The position numbers and the translations under genes were made by a program. From Solibacillus palustris (lineage in GTDB: Bacteria > Bacillota > Bacilli > Bacillales_A > Planococcaceae), in the NCBI RefSeq assembly GCF_022549215.1, contig NZ_JAKZFC010000011.1, positions 1 to 58,769 on the forward strand: a DNA stretch of 58,769 nucleotides, in the 5' to 3' direction. Each line of letters opens with the position of its first letter. The stretch's first letter is position 1. Shown piece by piece: positions 12,994 through 53,233 of this stretch. The notes under the pieces were generated by a model. That model worked only from the letters and a program-made list of their open reading frames with translations, made no database searches and was not told the DNA's origin.

Positions 12994-13044
12994 AGTTGCT
13001 TGAAGAACTCCTTTCCTCACCAATTACAACAGCTCGGTAGGATA

Positions 13045-13135
13045 TCAAATACGCCCCAGCGTAATTGCGTCCAGATTTTTTTCGAGCTCTTTCGAAAAAC
13101 CCCTTTAAAAATCTGTGACATCTGCCAGAGACTTT
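13045..13135 (-). repeat. dispersed structured repeat, family A, copy 1 (in marR leader)
   Basis: Read on the minus strand: GTCACAGATTTTT, AAAGGGG, a hairpin TTTTTCGA...TCGAAAAA, AATCTGGACGCAATTACGC. The same blocks occur at 15617-15746 and 17741-17869 in the same orientation. Here the hairpin is TTTCGA/TCGAAA instead of TTCAAGC/GCTTGAA, so pairing is kept while the bases change. In this copy the usual 5' hairpin lies further upstream, separated by a family B insert. Confidence 0.75.
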
Positions 13136-13139
13136 AGGT

Positions 13140-13290
13140 CAACATAAAGTTGATGACAAAGGCGTTGTCACAGGACGTGACGCTTTTATCCTTTATTTTC
13201 CTATTCATCCGGGGTTTGACCTCCACTGAATGAAGGTTATACTTTGGCAGTCACCCCCATTTATAGAAGTGGGGGACTTTTGCTGGAGCA
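13140..13290 (-). repeat. composite repeat upstream part, with family B core and GGGGG hairpin
   Basis: From 13290 to 13140 on the minus strand: a hairpin AGTCCCCCA...TGGGGGTGACT (about 13246-13276), an ATTCA...TGAAT hairpin around a GGAGG/CCCC stem resembling the family A terminal hairpin (about 13202-13231), and the family B core GTCAC-GTCCT-GTGAC (13167-13181). The core matches 53139-53153 in inverted orientation. No reading frame is apparent. The whole 13024-13315 stretch would be 5' UTR of marR. Confidence 0.6.
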
Positions 13291-13315
13291 AGTTTAACAC
13301 AAGACTAATCAACTG

Positions 13316-15454: not shown

Positions 15455-15616
15455 CCCCAGCCTCCTCACAACGTTACAGAAAAACTATAAGTAAAATCTT
15501 AACATACGTTGAAAAATTGATACAATGAAAAGCACCAAGTATTTTAAATGTTCAAGTGAATTATGACAAAATCCGCTCAATTACCAACCGAACTCCCAAA
15601 TTCGTCCAAGTTAATC

Positions 15617-15746
15617 AATTACGCCTCGGCGTAATTGCGTCCAGATTTTTCAAGCTCGCTTGAAAAATTCCCCTAAAAAATCTGTGACATCCGCAGGAGC
15701 TTAACTTGATTCAGCTGGGGTTTGAACCCCCGCTGAATCAAGTTAA
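15617..15746 (-). repeat. dispersed structured repeat, family A, copy 2 (hpt/ftsH junction)
   Basis: On the minus strand it starts in the hpt stop codon with a near-perfect hairpin: AACTTGATTCAGC / GCTGAATCAAGTT around a GGGG/CCCC stem (15710-15746). Then come GTCACAGATTTTTTAGGGG, an 11-bp hairpin ATTTTTCAAGC/GCTTGAAAAAT, AAAAATCTGGACGC and a third hairpin TTACGCC-GA-GGCGTAA. The terminal hairpin could act as a terminator of hpt although no long T run follows it. Confidence 0.85.
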
Positions 15747-16285
15747 AATGAGTATACTTCGCGTTTTAAAATTCCGATGTATGGTAAGTTACGATATTTC
15801 TCTGCGTAATCTAGACCGTATCCTACTACAAATCCATCTGGTACTTCGAAGCCAACAACATCTGCCTCTAAGTTTACTTTACGACCAGATGGCTTATCTA
15901 ATAATGTTACGATTTTAATTGATTTTGCTTTACGGTATTTAAATAAATCCACCAAATAGCTCAATGTTAAACCACTATCGATAATATCCTCGATAATTAT
16001 AACGTCACGGCCTTCAACACTTGTATTTAAGTCTTTCAAAATTTTTACTTCTCCAGACGAAACCGTTGCGTTACCATACGAAGATACATCCATGAAATCT
16101 AACTCAACGTAAGAATCAAAACGTTTCATTAAATCTGTCATGAAAGGCATAGCCCCTTTTAATACACCTACCGCTAATGGGAAGCTATCTTTGTACTCTT
16201 CTGTTAATTGTGCACCTAGTTCTTTAATACGCTCCTGGATTTGTTCTTCTGAAATCACTATTTTTTCAATATCATTTTGAATCAT
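15743..16285 (-). CDS. hpt: hypoxanthine phosphoribosyltransferase
   Basis: Purine salvage enzyme making IMP (and GMP) from the base and PRPP. The 180-aa type I PRTase has the PRPP-binding loop [17 protein letters not shown] (about residues 95-111) and [18 protein letters not shown] near the C-terminus. It follows tilS by 32 nt with SD AAGGAGG, the same tilS-hpt-ftsH order as B. subtilis. Confidence 0.95.
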
Positions 16286-16317
16286 GGGTAGATTCCTCCT
16301 TAGATTATTTCAACATT

Positions 16318-17724
16318 CTAATAACATTCATCGCTTTCCACAATAAGTACACAATCATGCTTGGCCAATTTTACGTTGGAAAATTTATTGTTTAAGCGTA
16401 CAGCTAATAAAGCTATCGGCTCGCCATTTGAATCGACTAATAACGGCCAATTGGCTCTTTTAATGAAAGGAATCTTGTCATCAATAAAAATGCGAGATAC
16501 TTTTTTCTTTTGCTGCATACCTTGTAGTGCAAGGCGATCCCCTTTTTCAGGAGCTCTTACAATGAGCGGAATTGCCATCGAGGAAGCAGAGAAATATTTT
16601 GGTTGATGCTGTTGTAGAAACGCATCATCGCATTGTGCAAGCTCCCCAATAAACATTCGAATAGATCCAAATGTATACCATTTATTGAATGTAAGCTGTT
16701 GCTGTTTGAGCGAACTATTTCTTTGCTTTTGTTCAAATACAATTTCATCGTAATGACGGCGTGCAATAAAATTCTCAGGTAAATCGACTGAACGGCTACC
16801 TTCAGACGTATCAAATAACGCCAAAATGGCCGTACAAAGTGCATAGCTTTGAATTGTATTCGATTGGTTATAAAGATAATTTAATAGTATTAAAATGAGC
16901 CTTCTTTGTAAAGCAAGTGGTTCATTTTGTAACGTAGAAACCGATACTTTATAACAATTTGCATCAATTCTTTCGAAAAGATGTGAAAAACGGTCTTGTG
17001 CAAGTTGCATTAATAATAAATCATCGGCAATAAGCTGCTGCGAAATCTGTACTGCATGCTCTGATACCAATGCATTTTCCCGTTTTAATAACGGGACAAT
17101 ATGATGGCGAAAACGATTCCGTGTATACGCATCTTTTGCATTACTTGCATCTTCACGATACGTAAGTGCTTCGCTATGTAAATATTCCCCTATTTGCGCT
17201 TTTGTAACCGCTAAAAATGGGCGAATAACAAATTGTTGTGCAAATGAACGAATCGGCAAAATTCCCTTTAAGCCATTTAACGAGCTCGCCTTTGTTAAAG
17301 CCATGAGCATTGATTCTAATTGGTCATCCGCATGATGTGCCGTTACAAGCTTTGTGAATGCATGCTCTTGCATTAGTTGGTCAAAAAATTGATAGCGCTC
17401 TCGGCGGCAAATGGCTTGTGTATTGCCTCCCTCCTGTTCGTAAATCGATGCAATGGGAATGGCACAGCTATAAACCGGTATCGCAAAATCATTACAATAC
17501 TGTTCCACAAATAAACGATCTTGAGCTGAAACCTCTCCACGCAGCATATGATCCACATGTGCGACTGCTATATCAATCTGCAGATAATGGCGAAAGCGCT
17601 GAAAAAAAGAGAGAAGCGCCATTGAATCAACGCCTCCCGAACAAGCTATCAATAATTTATCTCCTTGCTGTATGAGCTGAAGTTCTTTCATATATGCTAA
17701 TACACGATGCTCTAAACTATGCAT
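16318..17724 (-). CDS. tilS: tRNA(Ile)-lysidine synthase
   Basis: Converts C34 of the CAU-anticodon tRNA-Ile to lysidine, so that it reads AUA. The 468-aa protein has the N-type ATP-PPase motif SGGVDS (about residues 30-35), HVDHMLRGEVSAQDR and the C-terminal TilS domain. The ATG at 17724 is preceded by GGGGTG; the longer frame starts with the GTG of that SD. The TilS gene is followed by hpt; a family A repeat lies directly upstream where B. subtilis has yabT. Confidence 0.93.
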   Translation of the reverse strand: MHSLEHRVLAYMKELQLIQQGDKLLIACSGGVDSMALLSFFQRFRHYLQIDIAVAHVDHMLRGEVSAQDRLFVEQYCNDFAIPVYSCAIPIASIYEQEGGNTQAICRRERYQFFDQLMQEHAFTKLVTAHHADDQLESMLMALTKASSLNGLKGILPIRSFAQQFVIRPFLAVTKAQIGEYLHSEALTYREDASNAKDAYTRNRFRHHIVPLLKRENALVSEHAVQISQQLIADDLLLMQLAQDRFSHLFERIDANCYKVSVSTLQNEPLALQRRLILILLNYLYNQSNTIQSYALCTAILALFDTSEGSRSVDLPENFIARRHYDEIVFEQKQRNSSLKQQQLTFNKWYTFGSIRMFIGELAQCDDAFLQQHQPKYFSASSMAIPLIVRAPEKGDRLALQGMQQKKKVSRIFIDDKIPFIKRANWPLLVDSNGEPIALLAVRLNNKFSNVKLAKHDCVLIVESDECY

Positions 17725-17740
17725 CAAATTCACCCCATTT

Positions 17741-17869
17741 TCAATTACGCCTCGGCTAACTTTTGTCCAGATTTTTTAAACCGCTTGAAAAATCCCCCTA
17801 AAAAATCTGTGACATTCACCGGGGTTCAAATTGATTCAGCCGGGGTTTCCCCCCGCTGAATCAATTTAA
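17741..17869 (-). repeat. dispersed structured repeat, family A, copy 3 (spoIIE/tilS junction)
   Basis: Starts in the spoIIE stop codon with a hairpin AAATTGATTCAGC / GCTGAATCAATTT around GGGG/CCCC (17828-17867). Compared with copy 2 one C-G pair is replaced by A-T on both arms, a compensatory change. Next come GTCACAGATTTTTTAGGGG, a weaker inner hairpin, and AAAAAATCTGGAC pairing with CAGATTTTTT. The third hairpin (TTACGCC) has decayed here. It ends about 15 nt before the tilS start. Confidence 0.85.
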
Positions 17870-20226
17870 ACGACATTGGTCGGTCGAAAAACATGCCACG
17901 GCTTTGCTACATGTTGCAAACGAAACAGCATGACAGTACAATCGTCAGTTATTTCATACTTCTGCTTATAATGCGTCATACAATCAAATAATGCGACTTG
18001 AATCGATGCACCTTGTGCTAAACTTTCACGAATCGCTGATATAAATCGCTTTTCCTGCACATCCCATTGCTCTAATGCCGTGAATAAGCCGTCTGATACC
18101 ATTAAAATAACATCTTCTGCACGGAGTTTCACCAATTCTGTATCGACAGCAAAGTCCGGTAAAAATCCTATTGGAGCACATGTACTCTCTACTTTAAATA
18201 ATTCGTCGCCACGCAGCACATACGTCGTCATACCGCCCGCTTTCCAACACCACAAATTGCCAAACTGTAAATCAACAAGTGCAAAATCCATCGTGGCATA
18301 CATATCCGAATCATTTTTAAGCGATAAAACGTAGTGCATCGTATGCATTGCCGTTTCTGGGTCTAGATTATAAGCTAAGCATTGCTGCAACATATGAATT
18401 AAACGTTCGCTTTCTTCTTGCGCTGACTGATTTCTCCCCATTCCATCCGATAGCATCATTGCCATTAAACCTTTATGCAGTGGAAAAACCCGATAGGAGT
18501 CGCCCGAAATAGCATGATCTTTATAAGAATACGTATATACATCATACTCCAATTGATAGCGAATTGCTGAACGAAACTTTAACTGTCGGTAAAAAATCGG
18601 ATGACGTTGTTCACTTATAAGCTCCCCCTGCATTGGTTCGTGAAACCATTCAAACAAATTCTTTTCAAGTGCTTGCATCAATCCTTGTAAATCGCCTTCA
18701 TCAGCCATATAAAAATTGATTTCACGCTCGCCGATTTCATTGTTTTGCCATTCAATATGCAAGCACTTTAAGCCTTGCTCTATTAAAAACTGCTGTAATT
18801 GATTCGATGTTTCTGGAGCATCTAGCTCTTTTTGCTGATGCTGTAGTAATTGCTGTAAATGCTCCGTTAAATCTCTTAATTGAAGCGCAATCATCTTTTT
18901 ACCATGATAAAACTGACGCTCCATTTGCTCTTTTTGTAATGCCGCTTGGAGCTCCTCTAGTAATTTTCCAGATTTGATACATTTGCTTTTCAATTGTTCT
19001 TCTGCACGCAACCATGTTACGGGCTTCGAACTACGTCTTGCTAAACGCCAATTTTCTATAATTGGCACCATTTCTTGCTCGCCACCAAAGCATTGCGCAC
19101 GGCGAAAACAGCTTGAACAAATTAAAAATGGCTCATTATGTGTAGGTTGATTTGTTGTTGCTGCTACATCTTTTGTAAATCGCTCGAATACAAGTTCATT
19201 CATAAAAAACGCAAAGTGTTGAAATTGTTGTAATTGTTGCTCCACCATTTCATTACGATGAATGCGAACAACAGGTGTTGTTTGTTGCGTATAGTAATCT
19301 CGACACTCTTGCAAGAAACTCTTTGGCAAAAGCAAAAATAAAATTACACCCGTTATACTTGATAAAAAGTACACGCTATCGAGTGGCAACGTAGCATCGT
19401 AAAAAAAGAAAAACACACTCGGCAGCAAGCTAAAAACCGCAAGAACTACACGCCCATAAAGTTGTACAAAGCTCGCAACTAACCCGCTACACGCATACAA
19501 TATCATCATCCCTGTAAATGATAAGTCTGCCAAACCAATTAAAAATCCAAGGGCTAACGTCAAAACAACAGTCGCCCCTATTGTGGATGTAAACGCCACA
19601 ATACAAATCACTAATTGCAGCATAATTTGTGGTAACGAAAAATATACTACGACAAGTTCCTTCATACCAACAATCAAACTGGCTAAAATGAATACAGCTG
19701 CAACCATTTTATGTTTTGTCCATTCATCATTTCGCGCACCTTTAATTGGTACAAGTTGATTTAAAAAAAACAAGATCATAAGGGCAAACAAGCTTTCATA
19801 AACAACTGAAGCAATTACCAACACCGTCGGCAACCCACCATTAAGCACTATTTGCCAAAGTATTGGCACAGCCAAAACCGCTGTTAGTAACTGTGCATAG
19901 ACTGAAATTTTTACATATGGGAAACGGTGTAATCCCTCTAGCCATAACAATTGTAAGAGAACCAACATCCCTTGACCAAACCCTAATAAAAACGTCCCCA
20001 AAAGTCCGCCGATTAATACGAATTTTTGAGAGTTCGGTAACTTTTCCCTTAGTACGAGCCAAAGCGGTAAAAATAATGGGACAATCGTTTCAAAAAATAC
20101 TGCCTGCGCAAAGCAAAAGGCAATAAATAAAATACTTACCGCAAACAACTGCTTTCTACTGTTTAATTCATCGAGTTTTAAACTAGGAAACATTTTTTCT
20201 TCTTGCTGACGATTGATTGTAACCAC
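17866..20226 (-). CDS. spoIIE: stage II sporulation protein E, PP2C-type phosphatase
   Basis: Membrane phosphatase that dephosphorylates SpoIIAA to activate SigmaF in the forespore and acts with FtsZ at the polar septum. The 786-aa protein has about ten TM helices in the first 320 residues, a central region with a CSSC-type cysteine cluster, and a C-terminal PP2C domain with LSDGMG and MVSDGLF carrying metal-binding aspartates. Length is close to the B. subtilis protein (827 aa). The GTG at 20226 (MVTINRQ), 6 nt after AAAGGTG, is preferred to the GTG at 20235 within the SD. Confidence 0.94.
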   Translation of the reverse strand: MVTINRQQEEKMFPSLKLDELNSRKQLFAVSILFIAFCFAQAVFFETIVPLFLPLWLVLREKLPNSQKFVLIGGLLGTFLLGFGQGMLVLLQLLWLEGLHRFPYVKISVYAQLLTAVLAVPILWQIVLNGGLPTVLVIASVVYESLFALMILFFLNQLVPIKGARNDEWTKHKMVAAVFILASLIVGMKELVVVYFSLPQIMLQLVICIVAFTSTIGATVVLTLALGFLIGLADLSFTGMMILYACSGLVASFVQLYGRVVLAVFSLLPSVFFFFYDATLPLDSVYFLSSITGVILFLLLPKSFLQECRDYYTQQTTPVVRIHRNEMVEQQLQQFQHFAFFMNELVFERFTKDVAATTNQPTHNEPFLICSSCFRRAQCFGGEQEMVPIIENWRLARRSSKPVTWLRAEEQLKSKCIKSGKLLEELQAALQKEQMERQFYHGKKMIALQLRDLTEHLQQLLQHQQKELDAPETSNQLQQFLIEQGLKCLHIEWQNNEIGEREINFYMADEGDLQGLMQALEKNLFEWFHEPMQGELISEQRHPIFYRQLKFRSAIRYQLEYDVYTYSYKDHAISGDSYRVFPLHKGLMAMMLSDGMGRNQSAQEESERLIHMLQQCLAYNLDPETAMHTMHYVLSLKNDSDMYATMDFALVDLQFGNLWCWKAGGMTTYVLRGDELFKVESTCAPIGFLPDFAVDTELVKLRAEDVILMVSDGLFTALEQWDVQEKRFISAIRESLAQGASIQVALFDCMTHYKQKYEITDDCTVMLFRLQHVAKPWHVFRPTNVV

Positions 20227-50747: not shown

Positions 50748-50780
50748 CGTCGTATAAGTTGTATACACATATACTCGAAA

Positions 50781-50850
50781 CTACTTCCCTACGCTAGTCC
50801 TAACTAGATCCGGTTCAAAGGGTTCTTCTCAGCCAATGGCGCCCCTAGCA
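50781..50850 (-). ncRNA. TPP riboswitch aptamer, proximal (THI element)
   Basis: Minus strand carries all conserved blocks: GGGGCGCC, GGCTGAGA, ACCCTTTGAACCGGATC and CTAGCGTAGGGAAG. It is nearly identical to the distal copy at 50979-51049 and is followed by its own terminator. Confidence 0.95.
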
Positions 50851-50920
50851 GTTTATCTACCTATTCAATTTTTCTTATGTGGATTCCATTGAAAGCTTAT
50901 ACTTTTCTTTTCCACTAAAA

Positions 50921-50952: not shown

Positions 50953-50978
50953 ATGTACATGTATCCTATCAACATACC

Positions 50979-51049
50979 TCACTTCCCTACGCTAGTCCTA
51001 ACTAGATCCGGTTCAAAGGGTTCTTCTCAGCCAGTGGCGCCCCCAGTGC
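50979..51049 (-). ncRNA. TPP riboswitch aptamer, distal (THI element)
   Basis: Same conserved blocks as the proximal copy (GGGGGCGCC, GGCTGAGA, GAACCGGATC, GCGTAGGGAAG). Over 62 nt (ACTTCCC to GGCGCCC on the plus strand) the two differ at one position. It is transcribed first. Confidence 0.95.
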
Positions 51050-51075
51050 TATTAGTAATATTTATTTTCATCTTT

Positions 51076-53044: not shown

Positions 53045-53106
53045 GAATTGATCTCCTAATAACAAAAGGGCTATCCCTCATGTATCAATTAACTGCTTAA
53101 GGCGGT

Positions 53107-53183
53107 GGTCAGAATAAAGAGGAACGAATGCTAAAAACGTCACGTCCTGTGACAAAGCATTCATAACCAGCATCGTGCTGACC
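53107..53183. repeat. nested palindromic repeat, family B
   Basis: Three stems nest around one centre: GGTCAG (53107-53112) with CTGACC (53178-53183); GAATGCT (53126-53132) with AGCATTC (53156-53162); GTCAC (53139-53143) with GTGAC (53149-53153). The core GTCACAGGACGTGACG recurs, inverted, at 13167-13182. It lies between yabA and trmN6; no gene is seen in 53045-53197. Confidence 0.75.
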
Positions 53184-53197
53184 TCCATCTTCGGCGC

Positions 53198-53233
53198 AAA
53201 AGAGGTGTCCCAGAAATATTTCTCGGACACCTC
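53198..53233 (-). terminator. terminator of holB-ricT-yabA
   Basis: Minus-strand hairpin GAGGTGTCC-G-AGAAA / TTTCT-G-GGACACCTC followed by TTTTG, 6 nt past the yabA stop. Confidence 0.85.

Follow-up and report, generated by a model that had tools for sequence, protein, structure and literature searches.

IS608, one of the IS200/IS605 elements, inserts 3′ of the tetranucleotide TTAC, which is kept in the left flank, and its guides lie 5′ of each hairpin, as given in passages of two papers (PMC5934647, PMC6006769). The bcr elements are described in part of the literature (PMC6542083, PMC3446304) as repeats of 100-400 bp, with up to 130 copies of bcr1, a TTTAT motif and a frequent location in untranslated regions (UTRs), and the repetitive extragenic palindromes and bacterial interspersed mosaic elements (REP/BIME) as high-copy extragenic palindromes (passages of PMC8266576 and PMC6006769). 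Here we report on family A, a structured repeat with three copies in a 58,769-nt stretch of Solibacillus palustris DNA (contig NZ_JAKZFC010000011.1; hereafter the window), two of which lie directly 3′ of the stop codons of hpt and spoIIE. A preliminary description of this stretch had left the choice between a mobile palindromic element and a conserved RNA doubling as 3′ UTR or terminator. Copy number, covariation and empty sites within the species support the former, and family A is almost certainly a mobile element, which in the genome of the window (G000) takes the form of a high-copy non-autonomous DNA element of about 125-290 bp.

Family A resembles an IS200/IS605 end. Like the ends of IS608 and ISDra2 and of their non-autonomous derivatives, it has hairpin ends (both are imperfect palindromes by folding, and the right hairpin covaries), insertion 3′ of a short AT-rich motif that remains in the left flank, no duplication of the target, and base pairing between element and target. 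Its insertion rule is that of IS608; its guide geometry is another, and no enzyme was found. Unlike that family, it is accompanied by no TnpA (PF01797) in G000, and its ends differ from those of the IS200-type elements of relatives that were compared. The nearest parallel, in the passages available of PMC5934647, is an IS608 derivative that was engineered to pair additionally 3′ of the hairpin. In habit, the bcr repeats are nearest, being similar in length, copy number and TTTAT motif as far as the published passages describe them. However, bcr1 belongs to another bacterial family and has TTTAT at both ends (in one passage the motif is said to be repeated one or more times), whereas no TTTAA/T was found at the right end here. 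REP/BIME with their REP-associated tyrosine transposases (RAYT) are, from the portions of text at hand, likewise high-copy extragenic palindromes, but family A is longer, has no RAYT in G000 and shows precise insertions with a retained target. A classical miniature inverted-repeat transposable element would differ in two respects, since target duplication was lacking in 4/4 insertions and the two ends of family A are different hairpins. The BOX elements of Streptococcus pneumoniae are also modular repeats with optional internal modules. No published description of family A was found in the open-licence literature, as judged by title and the start of the abstract.

Copies, empty sites and the insertion rule

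Covariance model R1 detected at least 98 copies in G000 (E up to 0.01, with the best 150 of 2,542 first-look candidates scored). BLAST with the copy at hpt (copy 1) gave 55 places (best 40 of 117 candidates scored), some of which were self-complementary echoes. In other genomes of the genus, R1 found 96 copies in the same-species partner G001, at least 150 in each of G007 and G011, 3 in G012, 13 in the outgroup G013 and 22 in G015. A lack of further copies here or in relatives had been named in advance as evidence against a repeat family; copies were found in both. The length of the element in 38 G000 copies ranged from 128 to 287 bp. Within the bacterial family, 115 of the 200 genomes had a match to an 88-nt core, as had 11 of the 19 genera. 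Among the named matches listed, those with a core include at least Lysinibacillus, Sporosarcina, Psychrobacillus, Metasolibacillus, Rummeliibacillus, Siminovitchia and Bacillus norwichensis. No match at E 1e-5 was obtained among plasmid (72,556) and phage (50,697) records. Several copies were also noticed on contigs titled Arthrobacter beigongshangensis REN13 (L246, L257, L264, L267, L284, L285 and L290) at loci with a G+C of 0.39-0.44; this record seems to be mislabelled or to contain contaminating sequence from a Planococcaceae-like genome.

Mobility was also seen within the species. For 400 kb of G001, an initial core pattern was too loose (58 matches) and was replaced by a profile, by which 13 copies scored above 25; nine of these are common to G000 and four have empty sites there. 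Three empty sites are exact, with neither gain nor loss at the junction (GTTTAA/AATATCC, TTCTTAA/AATGAAAGG and CCTTCAA/AAGAGG, the slash marking the insertion point), and the fourth (TTTTTAA/TTTATAAG) is near-exact, with a T-run differing by one. The flank motif was within the empty site in 4/4 cases and target duplication was seen in 0/4. The insertion at 309015 (GTTTAA/AATATCC) is cleanly empty in the outgroup G013 as well as in G000, and was therefore gained. At copy 272918, the TTCAA site, G013 is empty too but reads CCTTCGATAAG, of which the GAT could be a scar; no clean G013 comparison was obtained for the remaining two. Copy 272918 (L160 near 12917) was also noticed to interrupt a terminator-like hairpin at its loop (CTTCTTAACCACCTTC and GAAGGTGGTTAAGAAG in the empty strain).

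The copies in the window gave a similar picture, with diverged flanks in some of the comparisons to G013 and G015. The hpt copy is missing from 14/14 other species of the genus examined, the empty site of G013 reading TCATTTTAA/TCAATTGGG. The spoIIE copy has a degenerate ortholog in G013 and is absent from G015 (empty site GTTTAAATGAGG, L074) and others, and the site of the third copy is empty in G013 (TCTTATATAGAA/ATCGTACAG) with a diverged flank. Insertion thus takes place immediately 3′ of a short AT-rich motif, which is kept in the left flank, and the target is not duplicated.

In the empty sites the left motif is TTTAA, CTTAA or TTCAA, and the first base of the element is normally C (CTTGATTCAGC). 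Among 146 copies, the flanking 5-mer is TTTAA in 55 and TTTAT in 36, the former prevailing in this species and the latter in many other genera, with the third base sometimes C. The right flank is mixed, its first two bases being TA in 29 copies, TT in 28, AA in 20, TG in 15 and others in the rest. From about position 1390, locus L115 has two complete units head to tail, followed by the beginning of another; their junction reads GATTGGG/CTTGATTC, and no TTTAA is present at the joins.

Structure of the copies and nested modules

The three window copies can be aligned end to end and are all detected by R1; on the element (minus) strand, they fold better than dinucleotide shuffles, with z of -8.67 and -6.39 in the two long copies and, over its core, -2.91 in the third. 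The structured repeats claimed at the hpt and spoIIE stops and near marR are thereby confirmed. The third copy, which had been described as a core in the marR leader, is real, but it is more than a core, being a 249-bp element with a nested Bacillaceae-1 RNA. The features are as follows.

13044..13292, minus strand: copy 3, the composite long form (249 bp), located between ftsH and the MarR-like gene (R1 match 13042-13133)
13139..13205, minus strand: Bacillaceae-1 RNA (RF01690) module at internal site 1 of copy 3 (cmscan 50.6 bits, gathering score 35)
15614..15742, minus strand: copy 1, simple form, 129 bp, directly 3′ of the hpt stop codon (alignment; R1 match 15612-15702); element 5′ end at 15742 and 3′ end (..GTAATTGAT) at 15614, both placed on the sequence with the help of empty sites
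15743..15748, minus strand: target flank of copy 1, TTTTAA, outside the element and including the hpt stop TAA (15743-15745)
15700..15742, minus strand: left hairpin of copy 1, from the fold; its 3′ arm runs on into GTTAAG, complementary to the left flank TTAAC
15639..15688, minus strand: central hairpin of copy 1 (GTCACAGATTTTTT ... AAAAATCTGGAC, inner stem), from covariation in 83 sequences
15614..15637, minus strand: right-end hairpin of copy 1 (CAATTACGCC GA GGCGTAATTG, then AT), ending at the right junction, from covariation and right junctions
17741..17865, minus strand: copy 2, simple form, 125 bp, directly 3′ of the spoIIE stop codon (alignment; R1 match 17738-17827)
17866..17870, minus strand: target flank of copy 2, TTTAA, containing the spoIIE stop TAA (17866-17868); the empty site in G015 is GTTTAAA

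With element ends read from the sequence under the guidance of empty sites, the stop codon TAA of both hpt and spoIIE forms the final three bases of the flanking TTTAA. In relatives of the genus free of the element, hpt ends in TTTTAA, in some TTCTAA. Among the neighbouring genes, hpt, tilS and ftsH scored above their NCBIfam cut-offs; spoIIE had an E of 1e-79 yet fell below its curated cut-off, and the MarR-like regulator was below cut-offs.

A long hairpin forms the left end of the element and a short one (CAATTACGCC-GA-GGCGTAATTG-AT) its right end; between the two lies a central hairpin that covaries. In the alignment of the window copies, the change from C-G to A-T in the terminal stem and the altered inner hairpin, both reported before, are real. 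Across genera, 97.1% of the cells of 83 core sequences pair and 16 of 29 pairs change on both sides; cells with a double change numbered 120, against 29.0 in shuffles that ignore kinship of the sequences (0/500 as high) and at most 43 when the alignment was slid. Compensatory change in the helices, as proposed, is therefore maintained well beyond the shuffled level. The right hairpin was picked by eye and counted on the same alignment, so that the tool warnings on relatedness and derived structures apply to it, and RNAalifold favours a GGCG-CGCC pairing over it. A competition between two folds, also proposed, holds for T-rich copies only, whereas across genera the outer (99.3% of cells) and inner (96.3%) helices can coexist, and in many copies the inner stem is AATTGNGC, which does not use the shared A-tract; a role as a conformational switch is not supported. 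In the spoIIE-tilS gap of G007 (L086), a solitary hairpin like the right end (CAATTACGCC..GGCGTAATTG) was observed without the remaining element, and G011 has its own truncated copy there.

The element is also modular, with hairpin modules, chiefly Bacillaceae-1, at fixed internal places. RF01690 is an Rfam entry for a small RNA gene, and a 2010 paper that lists it names the RNA once in its main text, as far as the portion available shows (PMC2864571). Here it is a module within copies of the element; outside it, the window copies match no Rfam family at the gathering score, and copies 1 and 2 have no RF01690 match. In G000 there were at least 101 matches, 100 of them above the cut-off (best 150 of 444 candidates scored), and of the 101 listed, 47 lie at two fixed sites of the element, all on its strand: 33 just 5′ of the core, where 0.04 would be expected by chance, and 14 inside the central hairpin. 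One or two such modules are carried by 39 of 98 copies, and modules occupy these two sites in other genera as well. The composite copies do not form one clade, as the nearest neighbour was of the same class in 26/40 against a shuffle mean of 23.6 (147/500 as high).

The other 54 matches lie elsewhere, several of them in a second dispersed repeat like that at window 53080-53215. The latter contains a Bacillaceae-1 module (53115-53181, plus strand) and is absent at the orthologous place in G013; host sequence like it recurs around several other Bacillaceae-1 copies. Small hairpin modules were also seen inside Bacillaceae-1 or the central hairpin at several nesting levels, with the enclosing stems retained (L232, L234, L249, L282, L294, L297, L307 and L315). 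Elsewhere in the window, two tandem thiamine pyrophosphate (TPP) riboswitch aptamers (50769-50856 and 50967-51054, minus strand) lie 198 nt apart and are 97% alike over 66 nt.

Target pairing and the mode of movement

The arm 3′ of the left hairpin extends the stem into the flank and is complementary to the target. In a flank-blind test (left-end score of at least 10/11, 81 distinct copies), flank bases 1, 2 and 3 paired in 78, 76 and 74 of 81 copies, versus 42.2, 70.5 and 68.8 expected from composition, and shuffles were as high in 0, 0 and 2 of 1000. With a left-end score of at least 12/16, which retained 146 of 162 copies (102 with a right arm, 95 distinct), flank and arm matched at 341 of 380 positions against 279 when shuffled. 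Within single genomes (score of at least 8/11; 52 copies in 11 groups), 181 of 208 matched, against a shuffle mean of 170.5, and 31/5000 shuffles were as good. All 5/5 copies with C at flank base 3 have a G in the arm, and at the TTCAA site of G001 the empty strain also reads TTCAA and the arm is GTTGAA instead of GTTAA. The pairs TTTAA/TTAAA, TTTAT/ATAAA and TTCTA/TAGAG stand side by side in one record, which is the doubtful REN13 assembly. Most composite copies with a module at site 1 are armless and drop out of these tests.

By analogy with IS200/IS605 transposition, the element may move as folded single-stranded DNA, its own arm pairing with the target and thereby choosing the site, and an enzyme supplied in trans would cut at the two hairpin bases; in this species that enzyme would be no recognisable Y1 transposase. 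Overall, a non-autonomous hairpin element with this insertion rule and arm complementarity, and with guided single-strand movement by an enzyme in trans as its proposed mode, is probably the best explanation of the data. For the base-pair-guided single-strand mechanism taken by itself, we consider the chances about even. A fuller picture can be put forward only tentatively, namely that family A might be a natural self-targeting hairpin element, in which the 3′ arm, part of the left hairpin stem, binds the target 5′ of the insertion point and arm variants redirect insertion (TTTAA, TTTAT, TTCAN). The enzyme would not be a known Y1 transposase, and the element would grow by uptake of other mobile hairpin modules (Bacillaceae-1) at fixed internal sites.

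Several observations weigh against a guided single-strand movement. Pairing is weak at flank bases 4 and 5 (69 and 71 of 1000 shuffles as high) and at chance at bases 6-8, and the signal at base 1 comes in large part from lineages differing in A or T. The GTTAA arm is lacking in copies that carry Bacillaceae-1 at site 1, for example the recent insertion at G001 309015, and these are still at TTTAA, so that either pairing is not a strict requirement or the module arrived afterwards. The match between flank and arm is poor in copies such as G001 326998 and L236, compensatory change after insertion could yield some of the pairing, and the gain at the TTCAA site is less certain because of the possible scar in G013. 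The geometry differs as well, as the complement of family A lies 3′ of the left hairpin, within its stem, whereas the guides of IS608 are placed 5′ in the passages seen of PMC5934647; the left hairpin starts at the first base of the element, and no tetranucleotide guide 5′ of the hairpin foot was found. No mobilising enzyme was found either, within a search restricted to the transposase families named here: PF01797 is absent from G000, G001, G007 and G012, and G000 and G001 are copy-rich and G007 has at least 150 copies despite this.

Other searches for an enzyme or a parent element were also negative. PF07282 had no match in G000; PF04986 (Y2) had none either, but control genomes also gave none, which makes this result uninformative. 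Among 80 of 108 pattern loci examined, 27 lacked a full core match, mostly being interrupted by hairpin modules, and no gene-bearing autonomous element was evident, the half-matches L237 and L250 having been inspected by eye only; L274, L283, L302 and L303 were unrelated chance matches to the pattern. The IS200-/IS605-type elements of relatives were rejected as a source, their ends being unrelated in a comparison of copies (18 pairs, two of which were uninformative about ends). Several such IS200-type elements (L126, L139-L141, L207-L223) were observed in T-rich stretches just after terminator-like hairpins.

Site-specific recombination or another class of transposase, as proposed for the Bacillus cereus bcr repeats, is a possible but rather doubtful alternative, under which the complementarity of flank and arm only extends a hairpin favoured after insertion. 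In its favour, long IS110 transposase frames are present in G000, G007, G011 and G013; however, G001 has only a fragment, no core was found at 20 fetched loci of IS110 and reverse transcriptase (of 43 matches), and TTCAA was already present in the empty strain, yet is matched by the arm.

The spread of REP-like palindromes by a Y1-family RAYT (TnpA-REP) is unlikely. The family commonly has Y1 genes, of which many occur in single copy and resemble RAYT (PF01797 in 131/200 family genomes and 9/16 genus genomes), and one of 20 RAYT-type loci (L204) has a core copy directly downstream, but the other 19 have none within about 2 kb. Furthermore, G000 and G001 have no PF01797, though recent insertions distinguish them, and copy number showed no relation to Y1 presence in the seven genus genomes counted. 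At strong Y1 loci, a core copy was found in 0/30 (profile, E up to 1), and looser patterns gave a few chance-like matches. As to the GT[AG]G foot of REP/RAYT, none of the 25 commonest flank 5-mers contains GTAG or GTGG, the flanks being mostly TTTAA or TTTAT. In 6/20 loci (L194, L195, L200, L202-L204), the RAYT-like gene shares a neighbourhood with a T-box leader.

Gene ends and RNA roles

The anchoring at stop codons seen in the window is frequent but no rule. In 25 of the 146 copies measured, the insertion point falls at the end of an upstream open reading frame (ORF) of 60 codons or more, exactly so in 24. The proportion was 11/38 in G000, 5/11 in G001, 8/95 elsewhere and 0/2 in G013, which makes the excess a feature of this species. 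Among TTTAA copies in G000, 8/25 are at stop codons, versus 32/608 non-genic TTTAA sites (binomial 2.8e-5), the background having been taken with a crude ORF caller from the window and 400 kb of G001. Of the four insertions that G001 has and G000 lacks, two (309015 and 326998; L162, L163) likewise lie exactly at a stop codon, and these small numbers hint that the excess is in part an insertion preference, beyond later selection. An insertion directly behind a stop codon leaves the gene intact.

Selection for a conserved cis-acting RNA at gene ends, whether as 3′ UTR, stabiliser or terminator, would account for the strong covariation and for the stop-codon excess in G000. This reading is nevertheless quite improbable, as the sites are not conserved (the hpt copy being confined to this species among those examined), insertions vary within the species, 121/146 copies are off stop codons by the ORF test, and only 8/95 are at stops outside the species and G013. 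The proposed doubling as a terminator did not hold: a simple consensus scan for an intrinsic-terminator-like site (G+C hairpin followed by a T run) found none on the minus strand at the end of hpt or spoIIE. Nor do core helix mismatches (30 G-T versus 26 A-C) show a wobble bias to the sense strand, whereas the Bacillaceae-1 module has 51 G-T versus 10 A-C in 28 sequences and, for comparison, tRNA acceptor stems have 14 G-T and 4 A-C (25 genes, some misaligned). The near-equal core mismatches weakly favour selection on the DNA itself, or simple decay, over a sense RNA.

In group II introns, the exon-binding site (EBS) pairs with the intron-binding site (IBS). Reverse-transcribed RNAs inserted in that manner by pairing with the 5′ flank would fit the missing target duplication, the 5′-flank pairing and the structured sequence throughout, but this is the least likely reading of all, as unlike such retroelements family A is found with no PF00078 (reverse transcriptase) in G000 or G001, G013 has ten matches but 13 copies, and the core lacks a sense-strand wobble bias.

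Through the insertions of family A, strong hairpins come to stand exactly behind stop codons, as at hpt and spoIIE. Its occurrence in genomes that have no recognisable Y1 transposase also points to an unrecognised enzyme that mobilises it. The Rfam family Bacillaceae-1, filed as a small RNA, is a mobile-element module in nearly half of its G000 matches, and its annotations are to be read differently. The natural insertions with matched empty sites, together with the natural variants of the target, make base-pair-guided insertion directly testable.

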